Source: Oscillospiraceae bacterium
GTDB taxonomy: Bacteria; Bacillota; Clostridia; Oscillospirales; Ruminococcaceae
NCBI GenBank assembly: GCA_017848115.1
Contig: JAGAKZ010000033.1
Span: 1-40,211, forward strand
Direction of reading: 5' to 3'
DNA length: 40,211 bases
Each line of letters opens with the position of its first letter. The first letter of the stretch is position 1. The notes beneath the pieces are model-generated. The model ran no database searches and was not told the origin of the DNA. It was given only the letters and a program-made list of their open reading frames with translations. The translations under genes and the position numbers were made by a program. This document shows positions 11,453 to 31,946 of this stretch, one piece after another.

Positions 11453-12076
11453 CTAGATTTTTATATCCAATTTTCCATTTCCGACAGAAGAAGTTATCGC
11501 CAAATCCTTATGGATTGTGTCCATAGATATTCTGCCTCGTGATTGTTCTCCGTATTCGGCATTTAATCTTTTCAATTCATCATTATATATTGAATAAAAC
11601 TGACGTGTACGATCTTGTTCTTCTGCTGTAGGAAAAACAGACCATCTACCTGTAATAGGGTGATATGCCAAACTCTTATCACCCCTACTGTTCCAGAACA
11701 TACACGCTGCATTCATTTTACCACCGGTTTTTTTCATGCTATTTTCATATATAGCTTTTCTATCAGGTGCTACAACTGATTGATATTTTCTCATCAATCC
11801 TTGTATCATTTTATGGTCTTTATTATCGGAGGAAAATTCTTTTCTTGCAAGTTCTCTAATAGCTAAATCAAATTCTTTCTCAGACATTGTAGATGAACTT
11901 TGCTTTGTTGCTATATTACTCCAATCAGGTTTTGTAAATGGTCGTTCTGTAGGCGTGTAACGCAACGAATAATTTCCATAATCCGTTCCATAAGGATCGG
12001 GAGTGCCGTTTTTTCCGCCGAGTAATTGCTGTATCATTTTTGAATATGATGAATAATTATCTCTGTTAATCTGCAT
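11453..12076 (-). CDS. hypothetical protein, soluble
   Basis: 207 residues, no membrane segment or signal. A very strong AAGGAGGTGATT box precedes the ATG. The N-terminus is polar and Gly/Tyr/Ser-rich (LLGGKNGTPDPYGTDYGNYS). The middle is charged and helical, and a later part carries YHPITGRWSVFPTAEEQDRT and a helical end. No family recognised. It is monocistronic with its own hairpin terminator, and its neighbours give no hint of function. Confidence 0.55.
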   Translation of the reverse strand: MQINRDNYSSYSKMIQQLLGGKNGTPDPYGTDYGNYSLRYTPTERPFTKPDWSNIATKQSSSTMSEKEFDLAIRELARKEFSSDNKDHKMIQGLMRKYQSVVAPDRKAIYENSMKKTGGKMNAACMFWNSRGDKSLAYHPITGRWSVFPTAEEQDRTRQFYSIYNDELKRLNAEYGEQSRGRISMDTIHKDLAITSSVGNGKLDIKI

Positions 12077-12209
12077 ACAATCACCTCCTTGTTGTACGAT
12101 GGTAAAAAGATACTCTTATATAATATATATCGTCAAAACACTAAGAACCTTAATATAATAAAATCAAAAAGTTTTCAATAACTGTTTTGCACTTTGAACT
12201 TTAATAACC

Positions 12210-22621: not shown

Positions 22622-22918
22622 AAAAAAAGCTCTCTTATGCAACCGCATAAAAGAGACGAGAAACTTCATATTATCCCGCGGTACCACTCTTTTTAACAAA
22701 AACATGTCCACTCAATCGTATCATCCAAAATACGCTTCTCTGTAACGGGAGAAAACCGTTCAAACCTACTTGCTAAATATGCTTTCAGCCGACTGCTCCG
22801 GGATGAGCTATGATCCGAACTTCCCTGCCGTCTTTCACCACAGAATCAACTTCCGGACGACATCTCTGGAATGAGAAGAAAACGAATTTTATTTCCCTTC
22901 ATCGCATTTAAAATTTAT
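22622..22918 (-). promoter_or_regulatory. T-box leader, leucine-responsive, with terminator
   Basis: Minus-strand leader. The T-box core AGAGTGGTACCGCG is at plus 22677-22690. The terminator stem CTCTTTTATGC/GCATAAGAGAG (plus 22630-22655) is followed by CTTTTTTTA. Upstream, stem I shows AGAGATG (plus 22861-22867) and a GGTGAAAG stretch. A CTC triplet followed by A (plus 22805-22807) sits where the specifier is expected, matching tRNA-Leu(GAG). Uncharged tRNA-Leu would favour antitermination and expression of leuACDB. The triplet assignment is by eye. Confidence 0.9.
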
Positions 22919-22924
22919 AGATTA

Positions 22925-22953
22925 ATTATATCGCATAATTACATCTTTGTCAA
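22925..22953 (-). promoter_or_regulatory. promoter of the leu T-box operon
   Basis: On the minus strand TTGACA (plus 22948-22953), 17 bases, TATAAT (plus 22925-22930). Perfect consensus. Start site expected near 22918. Confidence 0.85.
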
Positions 22954-23080
22954 GGGATTTGTGAAAAAATTATTTATGAGGTATGAAGAGAAAATTTTCA
23001 AAATAAATACAACAAGAAAAAAATGTTATATCTACTTCGAAAATTAACCAACATTTTTATTCAAAATACTATTTACTTAC

Positions 23081-23109
23081 TTGAGTTTATATCGATTATA
23101 CGTTATAAT
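23081..23109 (+). promoter_or_regulatory. promoter of the MmeI-type gene
   Basis: TTGAGT (23081-23086), 17 bases, TATAAT (23104-23109), 41 bases before the ATG. The stretch between the leu promoter and this one (22954-23080) holds no gene. Confidence 0.6.
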
Positions 23110-23150
23110 TATTATAAATTGTTATATATTTTTTTAAGGAGAGCAAACAT

Positions 23151-25922
23151 ATGAATGAAAAAGAAATTAAATCCGCTGCGAAAGCATTCGCTGATTACTG
23201 GAAAGATAAAGGGTATGAAAAAGGTGAATCACAAGCGTTCTGGCTATCGCTTCTGTGTAATGTATATGGCGTAGAACATCCGGAACAGTTCATCAGTTTT
23301 GAAGATCAAGTGAAGCTCGATCACACATCATTTATTGATGGCTATATTGATACAACTCACGTAATGATTGAACAGAAAGGTCTGGGAAAAGATCTCCGCA
23401 AGGGAATCAAACAGTCGGATGGTTCAATTCTGTCTCCTTTTCAGCAAGCAAAGCGTTATGCAGCAGAACTACCATATTCTAAACGTCCTCGTTGGATTAT
23501 CACCTGTAACTTTGCTGAATTTCTTGTTTATGACATGGAAAAGCCAAATAGCGAACCCGAACAAATTTTTTTAAAAGATTTGCCACAAGAATATTACCGC
23601 CTGCAGTTTCTTGTAGATACAGACAATGAAAATATCAAGAAAGAAATGGAGATATCACTCAAAGCCGGAGAACTTGTTGGTGCGCTATACGATGCTATCC
23701 TTAAACAATACAAAAATCCTGATGATCCCGAAACTTTAAAAAGTCTTAACAAACTCTGCGTTCGACTTGTATTTTGCCTTTATGCAGAGGATGCAGGTAT
23801 TTTTGGCAAGCATGGTATGTTTCATGATTATCTGAAAAAATATCCTGTAAACGAGGTACGTCACAAGCTTGTGGAACTGTTCCGTATACTTGATACCAAA
23901 GAGAATGACCGTGACCCTTATCTTGATGAAGATTTACTGGCGTTCCCTTATGTCAATGGCGGTCTGTTTGCGGATGAAAATATTGAAATTCCCCGATTTA
24001 CCGAAGAAATCGTACATCTCTTATTAAACAACGCAAGTGAAAATTTCGATTGGTCTGGTATATCACCTACTATTTTCGGTGCAGTTTTTGAATCCACCCT
24101 CAATCCCGAAACACGTCGCAAAGGTGGTATGCACTATACTTCAATTGAGAATATTCACAAAGTTATTGATCCGTTGTTTCTCAATGCTTTAAAAGCAGAA
24201 CTAGAGGATATCAAATCTTTAAAAGTTAAGAAAACACAGCAACAAAAACTACATGATTTTCGACAAAAGCTGTCAACTTTTGTATTTCTTGACCCTGCAG
24301 CAGGTAGTGGAAATTTCCTCACTGAAACATATATTAGTCTTCGTCGATTAGAAAATGAAGCGCTCTTTGAGGAAACTAATAGGCAGATGATGCTAGGCAT
24401 GAAAAACTTGATCCAGGTGAGTATCGGACAGTTTTACGGCATTGAAATCAATGATTTTGCTGTAACGGTTGCGAAAACGGCGTTGTGGATTGCGGAGAGC
24501 CAGATGATGCAGGAAACGGAGCAGATTATGCAGATCAACCTTAATTTCCTGCCGCTGAAAAGCTATGCGAATATCGTGGAGGGCAATGCACTTCGGATTG
24601 ACTGGGAGAGTGTTGTGCCGAAGGACAGGTTATCTTATATTATGGGTAATCCGCCATTTGTGGGACATCAAATGCGATCTTCGGCACAAGTGGATGATAT
24701 GGCAGTAGCATTTTATGATTTGCCAAAGCACGGAAAGCTTGACTATGTCTGTGCATGGTATAATAAAGCAGCCGATCTAATGGCAGGAACATGCATTAAA
24801 GCATCATTTGTGTCTACTAATTCTATTATTCAAGGAGAATCTGTCGGCATTCTATGGCGTTTCCTATTTGAAAAGAAAAATGTAGAAATCCAGTTTGCAC
24901 ATCAATCTTTTATTTGGGACAGTGAGGCAAATCTTAAGGCCCATGTTCATTGTGTTATTATAGGATTTACCATTTATAAAACGAATACCGAAAAGTTGAT
25001 TTTCAGCAATGGCTCTATGCTTAAGGTTAGCCATATCAATGGGTATCTTTTATCAGCACCAGATGTTTTTATTCAATCCAGAGGCAAGCCTCTATATGAA
25101 AATATGCCAGAAATGAGTAAGGGAAGCCAACCTACAGATGGAGGAAATCTTATTTTCTCCAAAGATGAGAGAAAAGAACTTATTGCTCTACATCCAGAGA
25201 TTGAACCATTCATACATAGATACATAAGTGCGGATGATTACATCAACAATAAATATAGGTACTGTATATGGCTTTACGAAGTTTCCCCAGCAAAGTACAG
25301 AAACATACCTACCATTATGAAAAGGTTAGAATTAGTTGCGGAATGTCGGAGAAAAAGTCCGACAGCGTCTGTAAAACTTGCTGCTGAAACTCCAATGATA
25401 TTTACACAAATTCGTCAGCCGTCTACAATGTATCTTGCAATGCCAGAGGTTTCCTCATCAAGAAGAAGATATATACCATTTGGCTATATGTCACCGGATG
25501 TTATTGCAAGCAATATGCTGTATCTCGTTCCGAATGTAGATTTGTATATGTTTGGAGTAATGACATCTAATGTTCATATGTCATGGCTTCGTGTAGTTGG
25601 AGGGCGATTAAAAAGCGACTACAGGTATACCCCTGCTGTTTACAACAACTTCCCGTGGTGCCATCCAACAGATGCGCAGAGGGCAAAGATAGAACACACA
25701 GCACAAATGATACTTGATGCTCGTGCAAAGTATCCAGACTGTTCCCTCGCTGACCTCTATGACGAAACTACTATGCCACCAGAACTGCGTAAAGCACATC
25801 AGCTCAACGACCGTGCTGTCATGGAAGCGTATGGCTTCTGGGGCAAGCTGAACTCTGAATCAGAGTGTGTGGCGGAACTGATGGGGATGTATAGGGAGAT
25901 GACGGAGGTAAAGAAGAAATGA
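23151..25922 (+). CDS. MmeI-type (type IIL) restriction endonuclease-methyltransferase
   Basis: 923 residues, the usual length of single-chain MmeI-family enzymes that modify and cut with one polypeptide. N-terminal PD-(D/E)XK nuclease: IDGYIDTTHVMIEQKG, with D63, E74 and K76. A helical linker follows (about 160-330). The N6-adenine methyltransferase has motif I DPAAGSGNF (381-389) and motif IV NPPF (500-503). A target-recognition region covers about 540-840, and a C-terminal helical tail ends GFWGKLNSESECVAELMGMY. AAGGAGAG before the ATG. Its TGA overlaps the next ATG (ATGA). The same tail recurs as relicts at 26485 and 27434. Confidence 0.92.
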   Translation: MNEKEIKSAAKAFADYWKDKGYEKGESQAFWLSLLCNVYGVEHPEQFISFEDQVKLDHTSFIDGYIDTTHVMIEQKGLGKDLRKGIKQSDGSILSPFQQAKRYAAELPYSKRPRWIITCNFAEFLVYDMEKPNSEPEQIFLKDLPQEYYRLQFLVDTDNENIKKEMEISLKAGELVGALYDAILKQYKNPDDPETLKSLNKLCVRLVFCLYAEDAGIFGKHGMFHDYLKKYPVNEVRHKLVELFRILDTKENDRDPYLDEDLLAFPYVNGGLFADENIEIPRFTEEIVHLLLNNASENFDWSGISPTIFGAVFESTLNPETRRKGGMHYTSIENIHKVIDPLFLNALKAELEDIKSLKVKKTQQQKLHDFRQKLSTFVFLDPAAGSGNFLTETYISLRRLENEALFEETNRQMMLGMKNLIQVSIGQFYGIEINDFAVTVAKTALWIAESQMMQETEQIMQINLNFLPLKSYANIVEGNALRIDWESVVPKDRLSYIMGNPPFVGHQMRSSAQVDDMAVAFYDLPKHGKLDYVCAWYNKAADLMAGTCIKASFVSTNSIIQGESVGILWRFLFEKKNVEIQFAHQSFIWDSEANLKAHVHCVIIGFTIYKTNTEKLIFSNGSMLKVSHINGYLLSAPDVFIQSRGKPLYENMPEMSKGSQPTDGGNLIFSKDERKELIALHPEIEPFIHRYISADDYINNKYRYCIWLYEVSPAKYRNIPTIMKRLELVAECRRKSPTASVKLAAETPMIFTQIRQPSTMYLAMPEVSSSRRRYIPFGYMSPDVIASNMLYLVPNVDLYMFGVMTSNVHMSWLRVVGGRLKSDYRYTPAVYNNFPWCHPTDAQRAKIEHTAQMILDARAKYPDCSLADLYDETTMPPELRKAHQLNDRAVMEAYGFWGKLNSESECVAELMGMYREMTEVKKK

Positions 25923-26473
25923 CCGTACAGACACTACATAATATCTGGAACTATTTTTTGGAACTGGAACAGGATATGAAAAACACTTCTCGATACATTG
26001 AACCGGAAGAACAAGAAAATGTGTATTCATTTGAGTTTGCAAAGTTGATTGTGTTATCATGTACCGAGGTTGAATCCGTGTTCAAATTGCTCTGTCTTGA
26101 AATAATTCCAGGTATGGAAAAAGGTAATATGTCCGATTACAAGGCAACAATTCTTGGAAAATATCCAAAAATTGTTGACGCTACTGTTAGTATCAGTAGA
26201 TGGGGAAAGGATATTAAGCCTTTTAATGGATGGGATACTGGAAAATTGTCATGGTGGAATGCATATCAAGGTATTAAGCATAATAGAGGTGCAAATTTTT
26301 CAGAAGCAACCTACAAAAATGCTGTATATGCTTTATCTGCTCTGTATGTGTTAATTTTTTATTACTATGCTCTCAATGGTGATATACCGTACGGTAGCAA
26401 ATACATACATAGTGAGTATGAACCACCGTTTCTTCTAGCTAAACAAGCTAAAGAACTTCCTGATTTTGAGTAA
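25919..26473 (+). CDS. helical hypothetical protein coupled to the MmeI-type gene
   Basis: 184 residues, all-alpha in appearance. ATGA overlap with the restriction gene, whose last codons (ACGGAGG) supply the ribosome binding site, so synthesis is coupled. Conserved-looking core: FAKLIVLSCTEVESVFKLLC and SWWNAYQGIKHNRGANFSEA, then NAVYALSALYVLIFYYY. The WxxYxxIKHxR pattern recalls HEPN-like or related helical proteins in conflict systems, but no convincing RxxxxH pair can be asserted. Possible accessory or toxin-like partner of the restriction enzyme; function unknown. Confidence 0.7.
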   Translation: MTVQTLHNIWNYFLELEQDMKNTSRYIEPEEQENVYSFEFAKLIVLSCTEVESVFKLLCLEIIPGMEKGNMSDYKATILGKYPKIVDATVSISRWGKDIKPFNGWDTGKLSWWNAYQGIKHNRGANFSEATYKNAVYALSALYVLIFYYYALNGDIPYGSKYIHSEYEPPFLLAKQAKELPDFE

Positions 26474-26484
26474 CTTTGTTGTTC

Positions 26485-26622
26485 TGTTAGTTTTATAAGT
26501 CTTATTAGCTCATCGACTGTGCTGTTATGGAAACGTGTGGCTTCTGGCGGAAGCAGAACTCTGAACCAGAGTTCGTGGCGAAATTGATGAGGATGTATAG
26601 AAATATGACGGAGGAAGAGAAA
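26485..26622 (+). pseudogene. decayed copy of the 3' end of an MmeI-family gene (tail copy 2)
   Basis: Bases 26509-26622 align without gaps to 25803-25916 of the intact gene, with 94 of 114 identical by hand count. Readable as AVMETCGFWRKQNSEPEF.VAKLMRMY. Weaker similarity extends to 26485, with TAG codons at 26488 and 26506. Differences from the intact tail are not concentrated at third codon positions (9, 5 and 6 at positions 1, 2 and 3), as expected for unselected decay. Its end supplies ACGGAGG for the next gene. Confidence 0.85.
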
Positions 26623-27387
26623 ATGAGCGAAACACACGAAGGACTATGCCATATTTGTGGCAAATATAGCAAGTTGACTTTTGAGCATATACCTCCTAAA
26701 CAAGCTTTCAATTGGTATCGTGCCAAAATATACAATGGTGATGAAGCACTAAAAAGAAGTAAAGGAGCGCAAGCAAAGTATTGTAACTTACAGCAAGGAA
26801 TGGGCAAGTATTCATTATGCCAAAGTTGTAATAACAACACCGGAGCATGGTATGCTCAGACTTATTGTGATTTTGCGATGGATGTTGTGAAATCTCTACA
26901 TAAACTCAACCAGCTTGAGCATGGAAATGTTGTCGAATTTACTTTTAAAAACTGTCCTATTCTTCAGGTAGTAAAACAAATAGTAGCCATGTTTTGTAGT
27001 ATTCTTCCTTATGATGAGGTGCAAAGGCTTGGCTTTGATAAACTATTACTTGAAAAAGAAAGCAATACTGTTAATCGAAAATTATTCGATTTGAGAATGT
27101 ATCTTACACCCATTGAGACAGGACAATTAATGTGCGGACCGTCTGTTGTTTTTGTAAAAAAAGATGAATCCGCAGAAGCTATCCGTGTTGCGGATTTAGG
27201 AGCATATCCATTTGGATTTATATTAAATCTTACTCCCGAAACACCAGTAAAATATGGTGGAAGTATTATGGATATGTTTAATGTAAAATACGATGAAAAG
27301 TGCGATTTTAAGTTATCTTTGGTGTACTTAGAACGAAGAAGTGTTGATTTCCCACTACCATTGGTATTTAAGGAACCAATTGACTAA
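26623..27387 (+). CDS. HNH-like zinc-binding protein
   Basis: 254 residues from the ATG at 26623, with CGGAGG eight bases upstream. An in-frame ATG at 26527 lies inside the relict MmeI tail and has no box. The N-terminus carries CHICGKYSKLTFEHIPPKQA and then YSLCQSCNNNTGAWYA: two CxxC pairs around a His, the layout of HNH/McrA-type nucleases (zinc knuckle plus E-H catalytic segment). The C-terminal ~170 residues are unrecognised mixed alpha/beta. A DNA-cutting accessory or defence protein is likely. It stands between two relict MmeI tails. Confidence 0.75.
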   Translation: MSETHEGLCHICGKYSKLTFEHIPPKQAFNWYRAKIYNGDEALKRSKGAQAKYCNLQQGMGKYSLCQSCNNNTGAWYAQTYCDFAMDVVKSLHKLNQLEHGNVVEFTFKNCPILQVVKQIVAMFCSILPYDEVQRLGFDKLLLEKESNTVNRKLFDLRMYLTPIETGQLMCGPSVVFVKKDESAEAIRVADLGAYPFGFILNLTPETPVKYGGSIMDMFNVKYDEKCDFKLSLVYLERRSVDFPLPLVFKEPID

Positions 27388-27433
27388 TAAGCAGACTAAA
27401 ACGTAGAATCATATAAATTAGCACATAATCTCA

Positions 27434-27600
27434 AACAACTTTCCGTAGTACCACTCAATGTTTAAACTATAAAAGACGCATCTGGTAAATAATTATTCTA
27501 TGGTAGGATGATACTACCTTTTTGGAACTTTGAATATGAGTCTGAATGAGTAGCAAAGTTAATGAGGATATATACAAAAACAACAAAGTTGTGGAAGTAA
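27434..27600 (+). pseudogene. decayed 3' end of another MmeI-family gene (tail copy 3)
   Basis: Two blocks match the intact gene in the right order. 27434-27458 matches 25644-25668 (20 of 25; encodes NNFP with the Trp TGG now TAG), and 27538-27576 matches 25857-25895 (25 of 39; ESE-stop-VAKLMRIY). About 100 bases between them are lost or diverged. In the second block 10 of 14 differences are at third codon positions, so this copy diverged mainly while still coding: it derives from a different homologue, not from the neighbour. Ends 47 bases before the next ATG. Confidence 0.7.
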
Positions 27601-27647
27601 CACATAAAATATGTTAAAAATAACATTAATATCATTTGGAGGATACT

Positions 27648-28823
27648 ATGCATAATAAGTATTATTTATATCGCTTTCTTAATGAACAAGATAATGTGTT
27701 ATATATTGGTAGAACCAATGATATACGAAGAAGAATTATAAAAGAACATTTTACAAAAAATACTCATCTTAGTAAAGAATGTTATGCTGAAACTATAAAA
27801 GTTGAATATTCAGAATTCAATAATGAATCTGAAGAAGTAGCATATGAAGCAATACTAATAAATAAAATCAAACCAAAATACAATGTGCAATTTAAGGATA
27901 ATGCCAAATTCAATATAAAACTTCCTGAAATTAAATGGCAACCTTTTGAATGGGATTTTAAAGGACAAATGGAAATAATGAAAGAATTAAAAGACGAAAC
28001 CATTCCAATACATACCATTCTCTATGATGTTATTGAAAAATATGCATCGCCAGAAAAACTTTTACAATACAATATTCATGGATTTAATGAAATTGATAAA
28101 TTCACCATTATATCACCTTCATCTACATCATTAATAGCCGGAGCACCAGGCACATATAAAACAAATTATGCCTTACATATCGCAATGATAAACGCACTCA
28201 ACAATCGTAAAGTACTATATATTAATTTAAAAAATTCGCTTGATTCAATATTTTTTAAAATATTATCTATGAAAACTCAGATTAAGATAAATAAATTCTA
28301 CACCTCAGATTTTACCGCTGACGATTGGAAAAATATAGCCTCCACAGCTGACTCTATCTCTAAGTTACCTTTACACTTTTATAATACTATTCAAAATGAA
28401 CACTCGCTATCTTCAATTGAGAAAGCTATTATTAACGTTGGGTGTGATTTAGCAATAATAGATGATTTATCTGCTATCAGCGATTGTGAAAACACATATT
28501 CTTCTGATAAATATTCAATTTCAGCAAACACATTAAAGAAAATCGCATTAAAAAACAATTGTTCAATAATCTCATTATATTCAATGAAAGTAAATCACAA
28601 CAATAAGCGTCCGTTAATCTCTGATCTACCTACAAGCTTAATAAGTTGCAGTGATTTAATAGAGTTTTTACATTTAGATTCGTACAGTATTAACGATAGT
28701 GATTATGACGATATTAATAATATTGAAATAATTATCGCTAAAAACCCATTAGGCGAAAACGCAACTATACAACTAAAAGCAGAAAACGGTAGACTATCAT
28801 CTGTATCACCAAAAAACGAATAA
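27648..28823 (+). CDS. GIY-YIG nuclease fused to DnaB/KaiC-type RecA-fold ATPase
   Basis: 391 residues from the ATG at 27648 (GGAGG five bases upstream; a TTG inside that box is not the start). Residues 5-79 are a GIY-YIG domain: YLYRF, LYIGR (19-22), R27, and YEAILINKIKPKYN with the metal-ligand Glu67. Residues about 140-391 resemble the DnaB C-terminal helicase domain: GFNEID, Walker A GAPGTYKT (165-172), Walker B LAIIDD (268-273). No DnaB N-terminal domain. A nuclease coupled to a DNA-dependent motor or switch fits defence or a selfish element. Codon use is more AT-rich than in the housekeeping genes. Third gene behind an MmeI tail. Confidence 0.8.
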   Translation: MHNKYYLYRFLNEQDNVLYIGRTNDIRRRIIKEHFTKNTHLSKECYAETIKVEYSEFNNESEEVAYEAILINKIKPKYNVQFKDNAKFNIKLPEIKWQPFEWDFKGQMEIMKELKDETIPIHTILYDVIEKYASPEKLLQYNIHGFNEIDKFTIISPSSTSLIAGAPGTYKTNYALHIAMINALNNRKVLYINLKNSLDSIFFKILSMKTQIKINKFYTSDFTADDWKNIASTADSISKLPLHFYNTIQNEHSLSSIEKAIINVGCDLAIIDDLSAISDCENTYSSDKYSISANTLKKIALKNNCSIISLYSMKVNHNNKRPLISDLPTSLISCSDLIEFLHLDSYSINDSDYDDINNIEIIIAKNPLGENATIQLKAENGRLSSVSPKNE

Positions 28824-28831
28824 ATACATAA

Positions 28832-28872
28832 GCCCTCCCAAAATTATCGGTATTCTGGGAGGGTTTGTTATT
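28832..28872. terminator. terminator between convergent genes
   Basis: CCCTCCCA (28833-28840) pairs with TGGGAGGG (28856-28863), extended by AAT/ATT, then TTTGTTATT. It ends the plus-strand accessory genes and borders the convergent AlbA_2 gene. Confidence 0.8.
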
Positions 28873-30358
28873 ACATTTTCAATTTATAAACTCTATTACG
28901 ATTTTCACCTTCAGCAACAATCATTTCATCCTTAACCATTTCAGCCAATACAGCTCTTGTCCTTTGAGTACTTATTCCGAGAAGTAATGAAATATCAGAA
29001 CTTCTTGCTGTTATATTTTCTGTTATATATGAAATTATTTTTTCTCTGTATAATGTTGTTTTTATCGCTTGTTTTTTATCGCTTGTTTTTATCGCTTGTT
29101 TTTTATCGCTTGTTTTTATCGCTTGTTTTTTATCGCTACTTTTTTCAATTTGTAGCGATAACGTAATTCTTTCTGGTTCAATATTTTCACTTATTTTTGG
29201 AGTAGTCCATCCTTGTTTTTCCCATACGTTGAAAATATTAGGTATACCACTCCCTGCACGCTCACCGATATCCACCATATTGAACATCTTTATAAGCGTT
29301 GCATTTCTTGGATCTGAAATACCACCACTTTTTGCTGTTTCAATATCAATACGAAAACTTCCGGGATTAGAAAAACTGAAACTATCCTTGTATTTTATAA
29401 CAACAACACCCTGTCTGCCATAATAATCTGCATTAATAAGACAATTTGCAAGAGCCTCTCTTAGTGCCTTATGAACAGGTGTATCATCAATTCTATCGCC
29501 ACCCTCAAGTTTGAATGGAATCTTGACATCCTGAGCGATTTTATTATAAACACGAAAGTAAAAATCATAAATATTTCCGCTCCACTCCCCTGATGAAGAA
29601 ACTATTCTGTCTGTCCATCTGGTACCGCTATCAAGATGTTCCTGATAATCAAGAAAATATTGGGGATATTCTTTTACGATTTCATATTCATAACCAAACA
29701 TAAGAAGTCCTGCCGCTGTAGGATGCATTTTGCCATCTGAACTTCTGCCCATAGCCCCCAATCTGTATAGAAAATCAACATCATCAAGTTCCTCCCAAAC
29801 ATGTCCCGGACGATAATTTTTCATTCTTATACGATAACGATGAACACTATCATAATCAAAAACATCAAGTCCCATTTCTTCCAGCAAAAGCATATCCTGA
29901 GTTTTTATAGACGCATCACGGGTCATGGCATGAACTTCATCTTTAGTACATTTGTAATCCCCTTCACCATTTCTTCTATATGAGCCTGTAAGAGGATTTC
30001 CGTCAATATAAACAGGTTTATCACTACGACTTGCACGAGGAACTTCGATTGAAATAAAACGATTACCATCGACATCATGAATGGTGACATTTCTATCAGA
30101 AAGAATGTTCACACTTACTTTTTTTTGATTGTTTATAATATTCCAAAACTCAGTAACCATAGATTCAGGGTCAGGAAGATTTACAGGGTGCAGTGATTTA
30201 TCTAAATATTCTTCTACACCAAGCAAAATAATACCACCAAAAGAATTTGCAAATGCCGAATAAGTTTCCCATATACTGCGTGGAAGTCCACCAAGTGCCT
30301 TTTTAGCTTCAATACGATTATTCTCACGATATTTTCCGATATTTTCAAAATCAATCAT
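28871..30358 (-). CDS. AlbA_2/Schlafen-type ATP-binding protein with winged-helix tail
   Basis: 495 residues from the ATG at 30358 (GAGGAAAAAG upstream). A longer reading overlaps the preceding gene. AlbA_2 domain at residues about 10-130 (NRIEAKKALGGLP...SAFANSFGGIILLGVEE), a RecG-like HATPase region about 290-400 (VHKALREALANCLINADYYG; NPGSFRIDIETAKSGG; GERAGSGIPNIF), a Lys-rich linker made of three identical TSDKKQAIK units, and a winged helix (ARSSDISLLLGISTQRTRAV). Last gene of an operon with the AAA-PDDEXK and DUF4869 genes. Likely nucleic-acid-binding regulator or defence component. Confidence 0.8.
   Translation of the reverse strand: MIDFENIGKYRENNRIEAKKALGGLPRSIWETYSAFANSFGGIILLGVEEYLDKSLHPVNLPDPESMVTEFWNIINNQKKVSVNILSDRNVTIHDVDGNRFISIEVPRASRSDKPVYIDGNPLTGSYRRNGEGDYKCTKDEVHAMTRDASIKTQDMLLLEEMGLDVFDYDSVHRYRIRMKNYRPGHVWEELDDVDFLYRLGAMGRSSDGKMHPTAAGLLMFGYEYEIVKEYPQYFLDYQEHLDSGTRWTDRIVSSSGEWSGNIYDFYFRVYNKIAQDVKIPFKLEGGDRIDDTPVHKALREALANCLINADYYGRQGVVVIKYKDSFSFSNPGSFRIDIETAKSGGISDPRNATLIKMFNMVDIGERAGSGIPNIFNVWEKQGWTTPKISENIEPERITLSLQIEKSSDKKQAIKTSDKKQAIKTSDKKQAIKTTLYREKIISYITENITARSSDISLLLGISTQRTRAVLAEMVKDEMIVAEGENRNRVYKLKM
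29058..29138 (-). repeat. in-frame minisatellite in the AlbA_2 gene
   Basis: Three 27-bp units, each made of a 13-bp and a 14-bp near-identical half (AGCGATAAAAACA / AGCGATAAAAAACA on the coding strand), encode TSDKKQAIK three times between the ATPase and winged-helix domains. A change of whole 27-bp units keeps frame; a change of one half-unit would shift it. Confidence 0.9.
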
Positions 30359-30368
30359 TACTTTTTCC

Positions 30369-31946
30369 TCATTCTTTCTGTATCTTTTCAATCATGCAAC
30401 TATGCTGTTTTGTTTTCATGTCGTAGCCGATACCTACCAGAATTATTTCTCCGATGTAATCTGACAATATAGCCGGATAATTATTGGATTTTATCTGATT
30501 GATTGCAGTGTCTGCCGTTTCGTCCCATTTGAGCTCTATGACAAGTGCAGGAAGTGCCGTATTGTTTTTGGGAAGATATACAACATCGGCAAGACCTTTT
30601 CCGCTCGGTAATTCTTCAACTTTCATATAACGGTCTACGCAAATGATATATGCAAACTTAACTGCATAACGCAAAGATTGTTCGTTGTTATAATACTGAG
30701 GAGCATAGTTTGTCTGACGGACATTTTTTATCGCCTGAGCAACTGCGTTTTCATTACCGGCAAGCGTATCTGCAAGAAGCTGTTCTGAACGCATAATGAG
30801 AGAAGTGAGTTTTGCATGAGAACGGTCACGCAATAATTTATCAAATTCCATTCGAACTTCTTCATTTGGTATACGAACACGTTTTTCATTTGAATTATAA
30901 GCAAGATATCCAAGGTGTACAAGTAAAGTAAGAACATCATCGTCAGAACGAAAAGTTGTAAAATCATTGTCGAAACCGCTCGGATCTATTTCTATCTGTT
31001 CATCAGCAATAAGTTTAAGTATTTTTTCCTGCAGACTGCTTAATGGATTCTGAATATTCATACCGATATATGTTAAAAGATTTTCGGCAGCAGATGTTTG
31101 TTTCCAGTACGAATCAAATACACCATTTTCCATTGCCATCATTACCGAATATGGATTATAGATTGAATCGCACTGACTGAAATTATATCCGTCATACCAG
31201 TGTTTCGCAGTTTCAAAATCCATATCATAACGATTATAAAGTTTTTTCACTTCTGCCTCAGTAAAACCTGTATATTTTGCAAATCTTCCGGGAGCAAGCA
31301 TCGAATATTCACGAAAATCAGAAATAGCAGACTGCGAACCGTCTTTCTTTATTGGCAAAATACCGGTTATATATGCTGCTGCAAATAGTTTGGCTGTTGT
31401 ATTGCTACTCTTGAAAAGCATTCGCAAAAACCGGAGGTAATCACTGCTTACTTCCGGACATTCTCTGAGCGGAGCATCCCATTCATCTATAAGCATAATA
31501 ATCTTTCTGCACGTTGTTTCAACCATATTCATCAGAGTCTGATCAAAAGATGAACCTTTTTTCACATCAGGATAACACAGACATATCTCTGTTTCCACAC
31601 TTTCTTTTATAAAGGTTATCAGTTTTTCAGGTTTTACTTTTTCAAGGATATTTGACATATCAAGATAAATGATATGATATTTGTTGATATACTTCTCATA
31701 ACTGTCATCACGGCTTATCTCCAAACCATCAAAAAGCGAGTGTGAATCACATGTGTGATCGTAGTAGGCACACAAAGTCTTTGCAGCATAGGATTTTCCG
31801 AAACGACGCGGACGACTTATACAAGTAAGCTGTCTTGGTGTATCAATTGTCTGATTTATAAGTGCAACCATTCCGGTTTTGTCGATATAATCTCCGTTTA
31901 ATGCTATTGCAAATGCCATATTTCCCGGATTAAGATACATTCCCAT
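30369..31946 (-). CDS. AAA-ATPase-like protein with C-terminal PD-(D/E)XK nuclease-like domain
   Basis: 525 residues. N-terminal ATPase of the AAA-ATPase_like type common in gut anaerobes: RPRRFGKSYAAKTL (Walker A, about 44-57) and IIMLIDEWDAP (Walker B). The middle has the family pattern GFTEAEVKKLY and HWYDGYNF....IYNPYSV. The C-terminus holds GKGLADVVYLP and ALVIELKWD, the D...ExK core of the PDDEXK_9 fold. GAGGAG box. 45 bases after the DUF4869 gene and 10 before the AlbA_2 start. The biological role of this abundant family is not settled; defence or element maintenance is suspected. Confidence 0.88.
   Translation of the reverse strand: MGMYLNPGNMAFAIALNGDYIDKTGMVALINQTIDTPRQLTCISRPRRFGKSYAAKTLCAYYDHTCDSHSLFDGLEISRDDSYEKYINKYHIIYLDMSNILEKVKPEKLITFIKESVETEICLCYPDVKKGSSFDQTLMNMVETTCRKIIMLIDEWDAPLRECPEVSSDYLRFLRMLFKSSNTTAKLFAAAYITGILPIKKDGSQSAISDFREYSMLAPGRFAKYTGFTEAEVKKLYNRYDMDFETAKHWYDGYNFSQCDSIYNPYSVMMAMENGVFDSYWKQTSAAENLLTYIGMNIQNPLSSLQEKILKLIADEQIEIDPSGFDNDFTTFRSDDDVLTLLVHLGYLAYNSNEKRVRIPNEEVRMEFDKLLRDRSHAKLTSLIMRSEQLLADTLAGNENAVAQAIKNVRQTNYAPQYYNNEQSLRYAVKFAYIICVDRYMKVEELPSGKGLADVVYLPKNNTALPALVIELKWDETADTAINQIKSNNYPAILSDYIGEIILVGIGYDMKTKQHSCMIEKIQKE

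Follow-up and report, generated by a model that had tools for sequence, protein, structure and literature searches.

Why should the last stretch of a restriction enzyme gene recur downstream of that gene, each time in front of an unrelated neighbour? The question is raised by a stretch of 40,211 nucleotides (nt) from an Oscillospiraceae genome (GenBank assembly GCA_017848115.1, contig JAGAKZ010000033.1; the whole stretch is called the window below), in which an intact MmeI-type (Type IIL) restriction–modification gene precedes a row of accessory, or cargo, genes with relict copies of its 3′ tail between them. We consider it probable that what follows the 3′ end of the MmeI-type gene is a displaced-module array, and our comparisons suggest that each relict marks an older gene end, the neighbour gene of which was pushed downstream by recombination. 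The repeats had been pointed out in an earlier reading of the letters alone (the sequence-only reading), and the features of the array are as follows.

23151..25922, + strand: intact MmeI-type (Type IIL) restriction–modification gene, 923 amino acids (Pfam, PADLOC)
25803..25922, + strand: intact 3′ tail, about the last 40 codons, which is the recurring segment and contains the GGAGG site of the next gene
25919..26473, + strand: cargo 1, a protein of 184 amino acids labelled helical in the sequence-only reading, overlapping the enzyme gene in an ATGA
26504..26622, + strand: relict tail copy 2, which starts 30 nt past the stop of cargo 1
26623..27387, + strand: cargo 2, an HNH-like protein (motif seen by eye), 254 amino acids
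27434..27600, + strand: degraded relict tail copy 3, in blocks 27434–27449 and 27537–27583 (profile score, third-position bias)
27648..28823, + strand: cargo 3, a GIY-YIG domain fused to a DnaB-type ATPase, 391 amino acids (Pfam)

The enzyme gene has the Pfam domains MmeI_N, hel, Mtase, TRD and C in one polypeptide, all five above the curated cut-off, and matches the PADLOC model REase_MTase_IIG with 1139 bits. Judged by its domains, it belongs to the MmeI family, as a predicted cleavage and single-strand modification enzyme.

Copy 2 had been described as an ungapped repeat with 94 of 114 identities at 26509–26622, which is exactly what we find. The alignment reaches as far as 26504, and its score of 160 compares with a best of 46 among 300 letter shuffles. 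This copy reads in frame with the HNH-like gene (open reading frame (ORF) 26527–27387) and, as had been stated, lacks a third-position bias, its mismatches falling on the three codon positions as 9/5/6. For copy 3, the claimed similarity over shuffled sequence depends on the method. Pairwise alignment does not bear it out (31 versus a shuffle best of 56), whereas a profile of 129 intact tails does: it gives 8.1 bits, a score equalled by none of 500 dinucleotide shuffles (best, 2.2), and the best pairwise match to any intact tail scores 24, where the highest of 100 shuffles reaches 22. The two blocks lie in the order proposed, with 27434–27449 corresponding to gene positions −272 to −257 and 27537–27583 to −60 to −14 (signed positions are nucleotides relative to the end of the MmeI gene), but the first block alone is not significant (−2.5 bits). 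Exactly 10 of the 14 differences in 27538–27576 are at third codon positions, as reported. Other descriptive claims also stood: the GGAGG of genes 25919 and 26623 sits within tail sequence, gene 27648 has Pfam matches to GIY-YIG (E = 2.7e-10) and DnaB_C (E = 4.9e-25), and each tail copy precedes a gene, namely the unassigned helical, the HNH-like and the GIY-YIG/DnaB-type ATPase gene.

Recurrence of the gene end in other MmeI loci

MmeI loci (L numbers) were collected from relatives and from public collections. In 124 intact loci with 500 nt or more of downstream sequence, the terminal 120 nt of the MmeI gene is repeated downstream 18 times, at 15 loci. Twenty other 120-nt slices of the gene (slice −480 to −361 is absent from those tested) gave 0–2 downstream matches each, solely from L083 and L098, and upstream of the MmeI genes of the same 124 loci there were no repeat matches. 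Downstream recurrence is therefore a property of the last 120 nt, which makes the repeat specific to the gene end. The sets of 124 and 125 loci are enriched for relatives of the window, and two members (L126 and L163) were fetched after a pattern scan had shown close tail pairs; 15 of 124 is therefore not a prevalence figure.

The genome of the window has a second MmeI locus (L005, contig C47) with two relict tails and different cargo, in the order MmeI gene, unassigned protein of 221 amino acids, relict, unassigned protein of 220 amino acids (membrane-like by eye), relict, CAP12-type TIR gene and HEPN gene. Tandem arrays are thus represented by L005, with two relicts, and by L125, with three. 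A scan of 396 genomes of the family at no more than 3 mismatches brought close tail pairs to notice in three genomes (G000, G288 and G346). On viral contigs, no relict was detected at 17 MmeI loci, of which L161 and L162 have no clear gene end.

Two loci show irregular surroundings. In L125, a Paludibacteraceae array, the third relict (12040–12100) enters a low-molecular-weight phosphatase-like gene that is followed by pyrE/pyrB-like genes (by eye), and this is apparently the edge of the array. In L038 (3740–4700), the cargo between the MmeI gene and the relict lies on the opposite strand and resembles a broken RhuM-type gene (by eye); the repeat there is 138 nt long and runs 19 nt beyond the stop codon.

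A row of tails could also have been left by tandem gain of whole MmeI-plus-cargo units and later deletion of the enzyme bodies, a route that the sequence-only reading had offered beside recombination at the gene end. L083 keeps 587 nt of a second MmeI gene, the enzyme body of L125 is unlike those of its sisters, and orphan tails in L170 and L175 seem by eye to be joined to the first codons of the enzyme with the middle deleted, all of which speak for such a course. However, among the 124 loci only L083 and L098 have any of the tested slices from before −120 again downstream, and the deletions would have had to stop repeatedly within the same 30 nt. We regard this history as improbable and disfavour it as a general route, whereas the sister loci and a breakpoint near −146, both described below, support recombination at the gene end as the way in which the genes were stacked.

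Orphan tails without an enzyme body have their left ends at −139 (L164), −111 (L170), −130 (L175) and −168 (L181). Those with apparent first MmeI codons lie at L175:4032–4208 and L170:3880–4006, and the junction in L175 is an open mini-ORF. A blast search for MmeI start codons before relicts gave no clear match in the arrays; the L170 match (E = 0.002) is suggestive, and that of L175 was seen by eye.

Sister loci and the proposed displacement of tail with cargo

If relicts are older gene ends, the same tail and cargo may be found behind intact MmeI genes elsewhere. An all-against-all comparison of downstream regions (blastn, 5 kb downstream) identified such a sister for 4 of the 18 relict-plus-cargo modules, copy 2 of the window among them. 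Copy 2 with its HNH-like gene matches L106 (recorded as Ruminococcus flavefaciens UBA3730) at 74.8% from −108 to +710. The L098 module matches L087 at 92.3% from −275, the L047 module, including a macro-domain gene, matches L089 at 83.8% from −135, and the L125 module with RhuM matches L165 at 93.9% and L123 at 94.7%, both from −119.

The proposal that the cargo of the window lives behind MmeI-family alleles is supported for two of the three genes, the closest relatives found for them being direct followers of intact MmeI genes. For the HNH-like protein this relative, at 70% identity, is in L106; for the helical protein there are two, at 60% in L145 and at 58% in L146. For the GIY-YIG/ATPase gene, no relative behind an MmeI gene was found among the matches listed from 297 genomes, nor in viral contigs. 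Only its ATPase half (roughly residues 106–387) is covered among those listed matches, which would fit replicative helicases, and its GIY-YIG part has three plasmid matches at 36–41%.

More distant relatives (about 30% identity) that were checked, two of the helical gene and five of the HNH-like gene, do not lie beside MmeI genes, so the tie between cargo and MmeI is limited to close relatives. Relatives of the HNH-like protein outside an MmeI context occur at about 30% in three viral contigs and at 27–37% in eight plasmids; no MmeI tail is seen in the five of these stretches that were checked (three viral and two plasmid), of which L207, L208 and H1 hold less than 300 nt upstream of the gene. 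Searched against viral contigs, the helical gene matched none but the contig of L146. In L145, the gene after the window-type cargo 1 is SIR2-like by its N terminus (by eye), which suggests a two-gene cargo there.

Two of the sister pairs have like 5′ bodies, and in both the tail and cargo of the sister lie behind a different 3′ end with different cargo. L098 and L087 are 94–100% identical per 100 nt in segments ending at −2950 to −1350, upstream flank included (one segment, 81%), and 45–67% identical in segments ending at −1150 to −250; further downstream, L098 holds the C-terminal piece and cargo of L087 at 92%. L047 and L089 are 91–99% identical from −1958, where the L047 contig starts inside the gene, to −1250, after which identity drops, and the displaced module is 84% identical. 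Because the 3′ piece and cargo of the sister sit displaced in L098 and L047, the sister state looks ancestral and the array state derived. A third comparison concerns L123 and L165, two intact genes that share RhuM cargo. They are 93–100% alike per 30 nt from −120 to +270 and 47–83% alike before −150, with a breakpoint at about −146. As they are near-identical from this point into the cargo and differ upstream, tail and cargo can travel as a unit.

The same comparisons bear on local duplication of the tail, or an assembly error, with unrelated genes inserted between the copies. Such an origin would agree with the position of every relict close behind its parent gene, but we find it very hard to credit: the junctions of tail and cargo recur in independent assemblies for four modules, which largely refutes it for these four, relicts have a third-position bias, and sister-matched relicts run on into the cargo of the sister.

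Under the displaced-module reading, the unit of the array would be the last ~120 nt of the enzyme gene together with the accessory gene behind it. Foreign DNA carrying the 3′ part of another allele with its cargo would recombine into the resident gene, and we infer that the left crossover would fall in a conserved stretch (methyltransferase motif IV or the C-terminal domain) and the right crossover in the conserved tail. The enzyme would retain an intact end, and the old tail and old cargo would move one step downstream. Repeated rounds would then yield the order enzyme, newest cargo, relict, older cargo, relict and oldest cargo. Displaced old cargo would keep its start signal, since several of the tails hold a ribosome-binding site.

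Relict boundaries, breakpoints and the case against

The points at which the relicts begin, as set by profile alignment, cluster. Left edges fall at −141 to −113 in 14 of the 18 relicts (11 of 15 loci, counting one per locus), an interval into which uniform edges over −700 to −60 would put 0.8 of 18. In a spacing list that omits L083 and L124, 12 of 16 relicts start within 30 nt of the stop codon of the preceding ORF. Differences between relict and resident tails are distributed over codon positions as 48/40/130 in 16 of the 18 relicts (L083 and L125 copy c are omitted, and the L182 alignment spans −36 to −4 only), and this third-position excess indicates that, taken together, the tails were coding sequence while they diverged and were displaced only afterwards. 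A diversity-generating retroelement would be marked by a reverse transcriptase and by adenine-directed changes between its repeats; the relict mismatches follow codon position. In three of five comparisons with a sister, the relict tail looks like a mosaic of the own tail of the locus and that of the sister (tail-only p < 0.03).

Edges and spacings this regular also favour another explanation, in which a mobile unit composed of the ~120-nt tail, the cargo and a few nucleotides enters the MmeI gene at about −120. Like an integron cassette, or an island that attaches at the 3′ end of a gene, it would restore the C terminus of the enzyme, with the recombinase supplied in trans. The edges often lie at CAY-CAR codons (His883–Gln884; by eye), and similar edges occur in loci titled Ruminococcus and Paludibacteraceae. 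We nevertheless hold insertion of this kind to be unlikely, although a real contender. The edges spread over about 30 nt, with some at −69, −97, −287 and −587, a common motif on the cargo side was not seen by eye, and the breakpoints of intact genes lie at several places. A regular expression for recombinase motifs gave eight hits, none of them in array loci; the expression was crude, with no full-family search made, and it missed the recombinase-like ORF of L028 (by eye).

That serine-recombinase-like ORF lies directly behind the MmeI gene of L028, and an integrase-like ORF lies behind the cargo of L106 (both by eye).

Extended to the whole family, the insertion hypothesis would turn MmeI-type genes into loading docks, with entry near −120, in a site-defined cassette system that has no resident integrase, a view which we entertain only tentatively. 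Each unit might conceivably consist of the ~120-nt end and one compact gene, restoring the C terminus and supplying a ribosome-binding site. Defence genes might, on the same doubtful footing, accumulate in order, with the specificity half of the enzyme exchanged independently at motif IV.

Two further ideas about the boundaries were rejected. Retention of a promoter was considered as the force that sets the boundary, but promoter-like sites in 22800–28900 are at shuffle level (30 versus 27.9 ± 5.7), and neither copy 2 nor the intact tail has one. A gradual shortening of relicts by erosion over time is not favoured, as relicts that are 90–97% alike are also short (L047, L109, L124 and L163).

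Exchange also occurs within the enzyme gene itself. Among 34 gene pairs with like 5′ bodies, many of which have a common member and hence are not independent, 23 break at −1262 to −1250, just behind NPPFVG and adjoining the most conserved window of the gene; nine break elsewhere and two show no break. Recognition domains differ in 32 of the 34 pairs, and 29 of these 32 share nothing in the first 600 nt downstream. At this exchange hot spot (about −1257, or about 24664 in the window), behind methyltransferase motif IV, like 5′ halves are joined to unrelated specificity halves.

Several observations weigh against the displaced-module reading. An order-wide scan of 295 genomes at no more than 2 mismatches found a close tail pair only in the genome of the window, and 14 of the 18 relict modules have no sister in the set compared by blastn over 5 kb downstream. 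Sister L106 is not orthologous to the window (body about 67%), nor are L123 and L165 to L125, which differs from its sisters over the whole body. Copy 2 of the window, taken by itself, has no third-position bias. Tail-only mosaic tests range from p = 0.0018 to 0.25, and the pattern in L125 is a patch, not a simple left/right division; the overall tests reach p ≤ 0.005 but count cargo sites as well, which makes them partly trivial, and relict mosaics could be mimicked by changes that arose later in the sisters. L123 and L167 have the same enzyme and different cargo, with a break near −19. A general breakpoint scan placed the 30 strongest jumps towards more-alike tails at −221 to −360, not at −120, and jumps to less-alike tails lie mostly at −75 to −97, a stretch that is variable anyway. 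Given how often recognition domains differ between like-bodied pairs, cargo insertion and the change of domain in L098 and L047 may have been two separate events. Last, plain homologous recombination fails to account for a new junction of cargo end with tail. The regularity of this junction could come from homology-facilitated illegitimate recombination in which compact junctions are selected, or from a cassette process with a defined site.

Cargo genes and likeness to known arrays

Twenty-six genes that lie within arrays or immediately follow them were scanned against Pfam (the cargo of L038, L109, L123 and L124 is omitted), and 13 gave matches at E ≤ 0.001. The matched domains are TIR (two kinds), HEPN, macro, Schlafen/AlbA_2 (two), YhcG nuclease, RhuM and AbiH, as well as RES, peptidase M78, BRO and GIY-YIG/DnaB. 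Several of these are known or suspected defence or toxin domains. Genes 25919 and 26623 of the window have no Pfam match at E up to 0.05. Among the 25 listed of the 119 PADLOC families that match 52 genes directly behind MmeI genes are the candidate models PDC-S02, S05 and S23. Dockerin, glycosidase and leucine-rich repeat proteins are also encoded directly behind MmeI genes (among the 25 listed of 34 families), so not every gene in this position is cargo. On the strength of its domains, the cargo is probably in large part of anti-phage or toxin type and would profit from the ride with a selected restriction system.

Tight coupling of the enzyme to the next gene, as the sequence-only reading had it, is common but not universal: a same-strand ORF starts at −30 to +150 of the MmeI stop in 83 of 125 loci, and within 30 nt in 45. 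A ribosome-binding-like motif lies near the gene start in 11 of 14 cases checked, and one of the three misses is a mis-set start.

Past the array, the window has a reverse-strand gene pair at 28871–31946, AlbA_2/HATPase followed by AAA-ATPase-like/PDDEXK_9, both of which are plausible further defence genes. A tandem 13/14-nt repeat of the TTTTTATCGCTTG type lies at window 29042–29144, inside the reverse-strand Schlafen/AlbA_2 gene 28871–30391.

The closest likeness to the displaced-module array is found outside restriction–modification. Orphan cdiA-CT/cdiI modules of contact-dependent inhibition (CDI) and rhs modules are described, in the portions of the reports available to us, as displaced 3′ gene pieces with a partner gene, in tandem and in the same orientation, as here (PMC4927057, PMC3150448). 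Some cdiA-CT/rhs modules run sharply between successive conserved VENN motifs, and one model put forward there for orphan CDI/Rhs modules sees in them a fossil record of earlier exchanges (PMC4927057, PMC3150448). In those modules, however, it is the variable toxin tip that is displaced, with an immunity gene as its partner (PMC4927057, PMC3150448), whereas in the MmeI array a conserved restriction-enzyme tail is displaced, and the genes that accompany it are unrelated accessory ones. In Vibrio cholerae, according to the accessible text, modules that enter the 3′ region of a gene one after another push older genes downstream in the immunity-gene arrays of the type VI secretion system (T6SS), and homology-facilitated illegitimate recombination is the route proposed (PMC5361080). 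Those arrays hold effector/immunity pairs, and no constant 120-nt tail before the displaced genes is reported in that text (PMC5361080).

Measured against such displaced arrays, the MmeI loci have partial 3′ copies of the anchor gene downstream in the same orientation, each followed by a gene. The module is found on an intact anchor elsewhere for 4 of 18, with none found for the module of copy 3, and a variable toxin tip with cognate immunity is absent. With a conserved enzyme tail and unrelated genes, the array works like those of CDI, Rhs and T6SS, yet is not such a locus.

Recombination swaps specificity parts in the restriction–modification domain movement of Helicobacter pylori (PMC3983042) and in the pneumococcal tvr locus, which unlike the MmeI loci has a dedicated recombinase (PMC6265443); displaced downstream cargo is not described in the available parts of either account (PMC3983042, PMC6265443). 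Integron gene cassettes, as the available text presents them, likewise combine a compact gene with a short repeat, the newest beside the anchor gene (PMC5361080), whereas the repeat of the MmeI array is a coding gene end. Our searches of the open-licence literature in PubMed Central brought up no description of such arrays on restriction enzymes.

The displaced-module array would extend the idea of displaced orphan modules from bacterial toxins to restriction–modification genes, and would offer a concrete route by which defence genes pile up behind them. It also gives a handle for searches: any ORF that immediately follows an orphan MmeI tail becomes a candidate for an accessory or defence gene, known domain or not, and two of the three cargo genes of the window are domain-less candidates of this kind. 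The order of the relicts may be read as a history of gene gain, and the array would be both a fossil record and a signpost to possible genes for defence against viruses.

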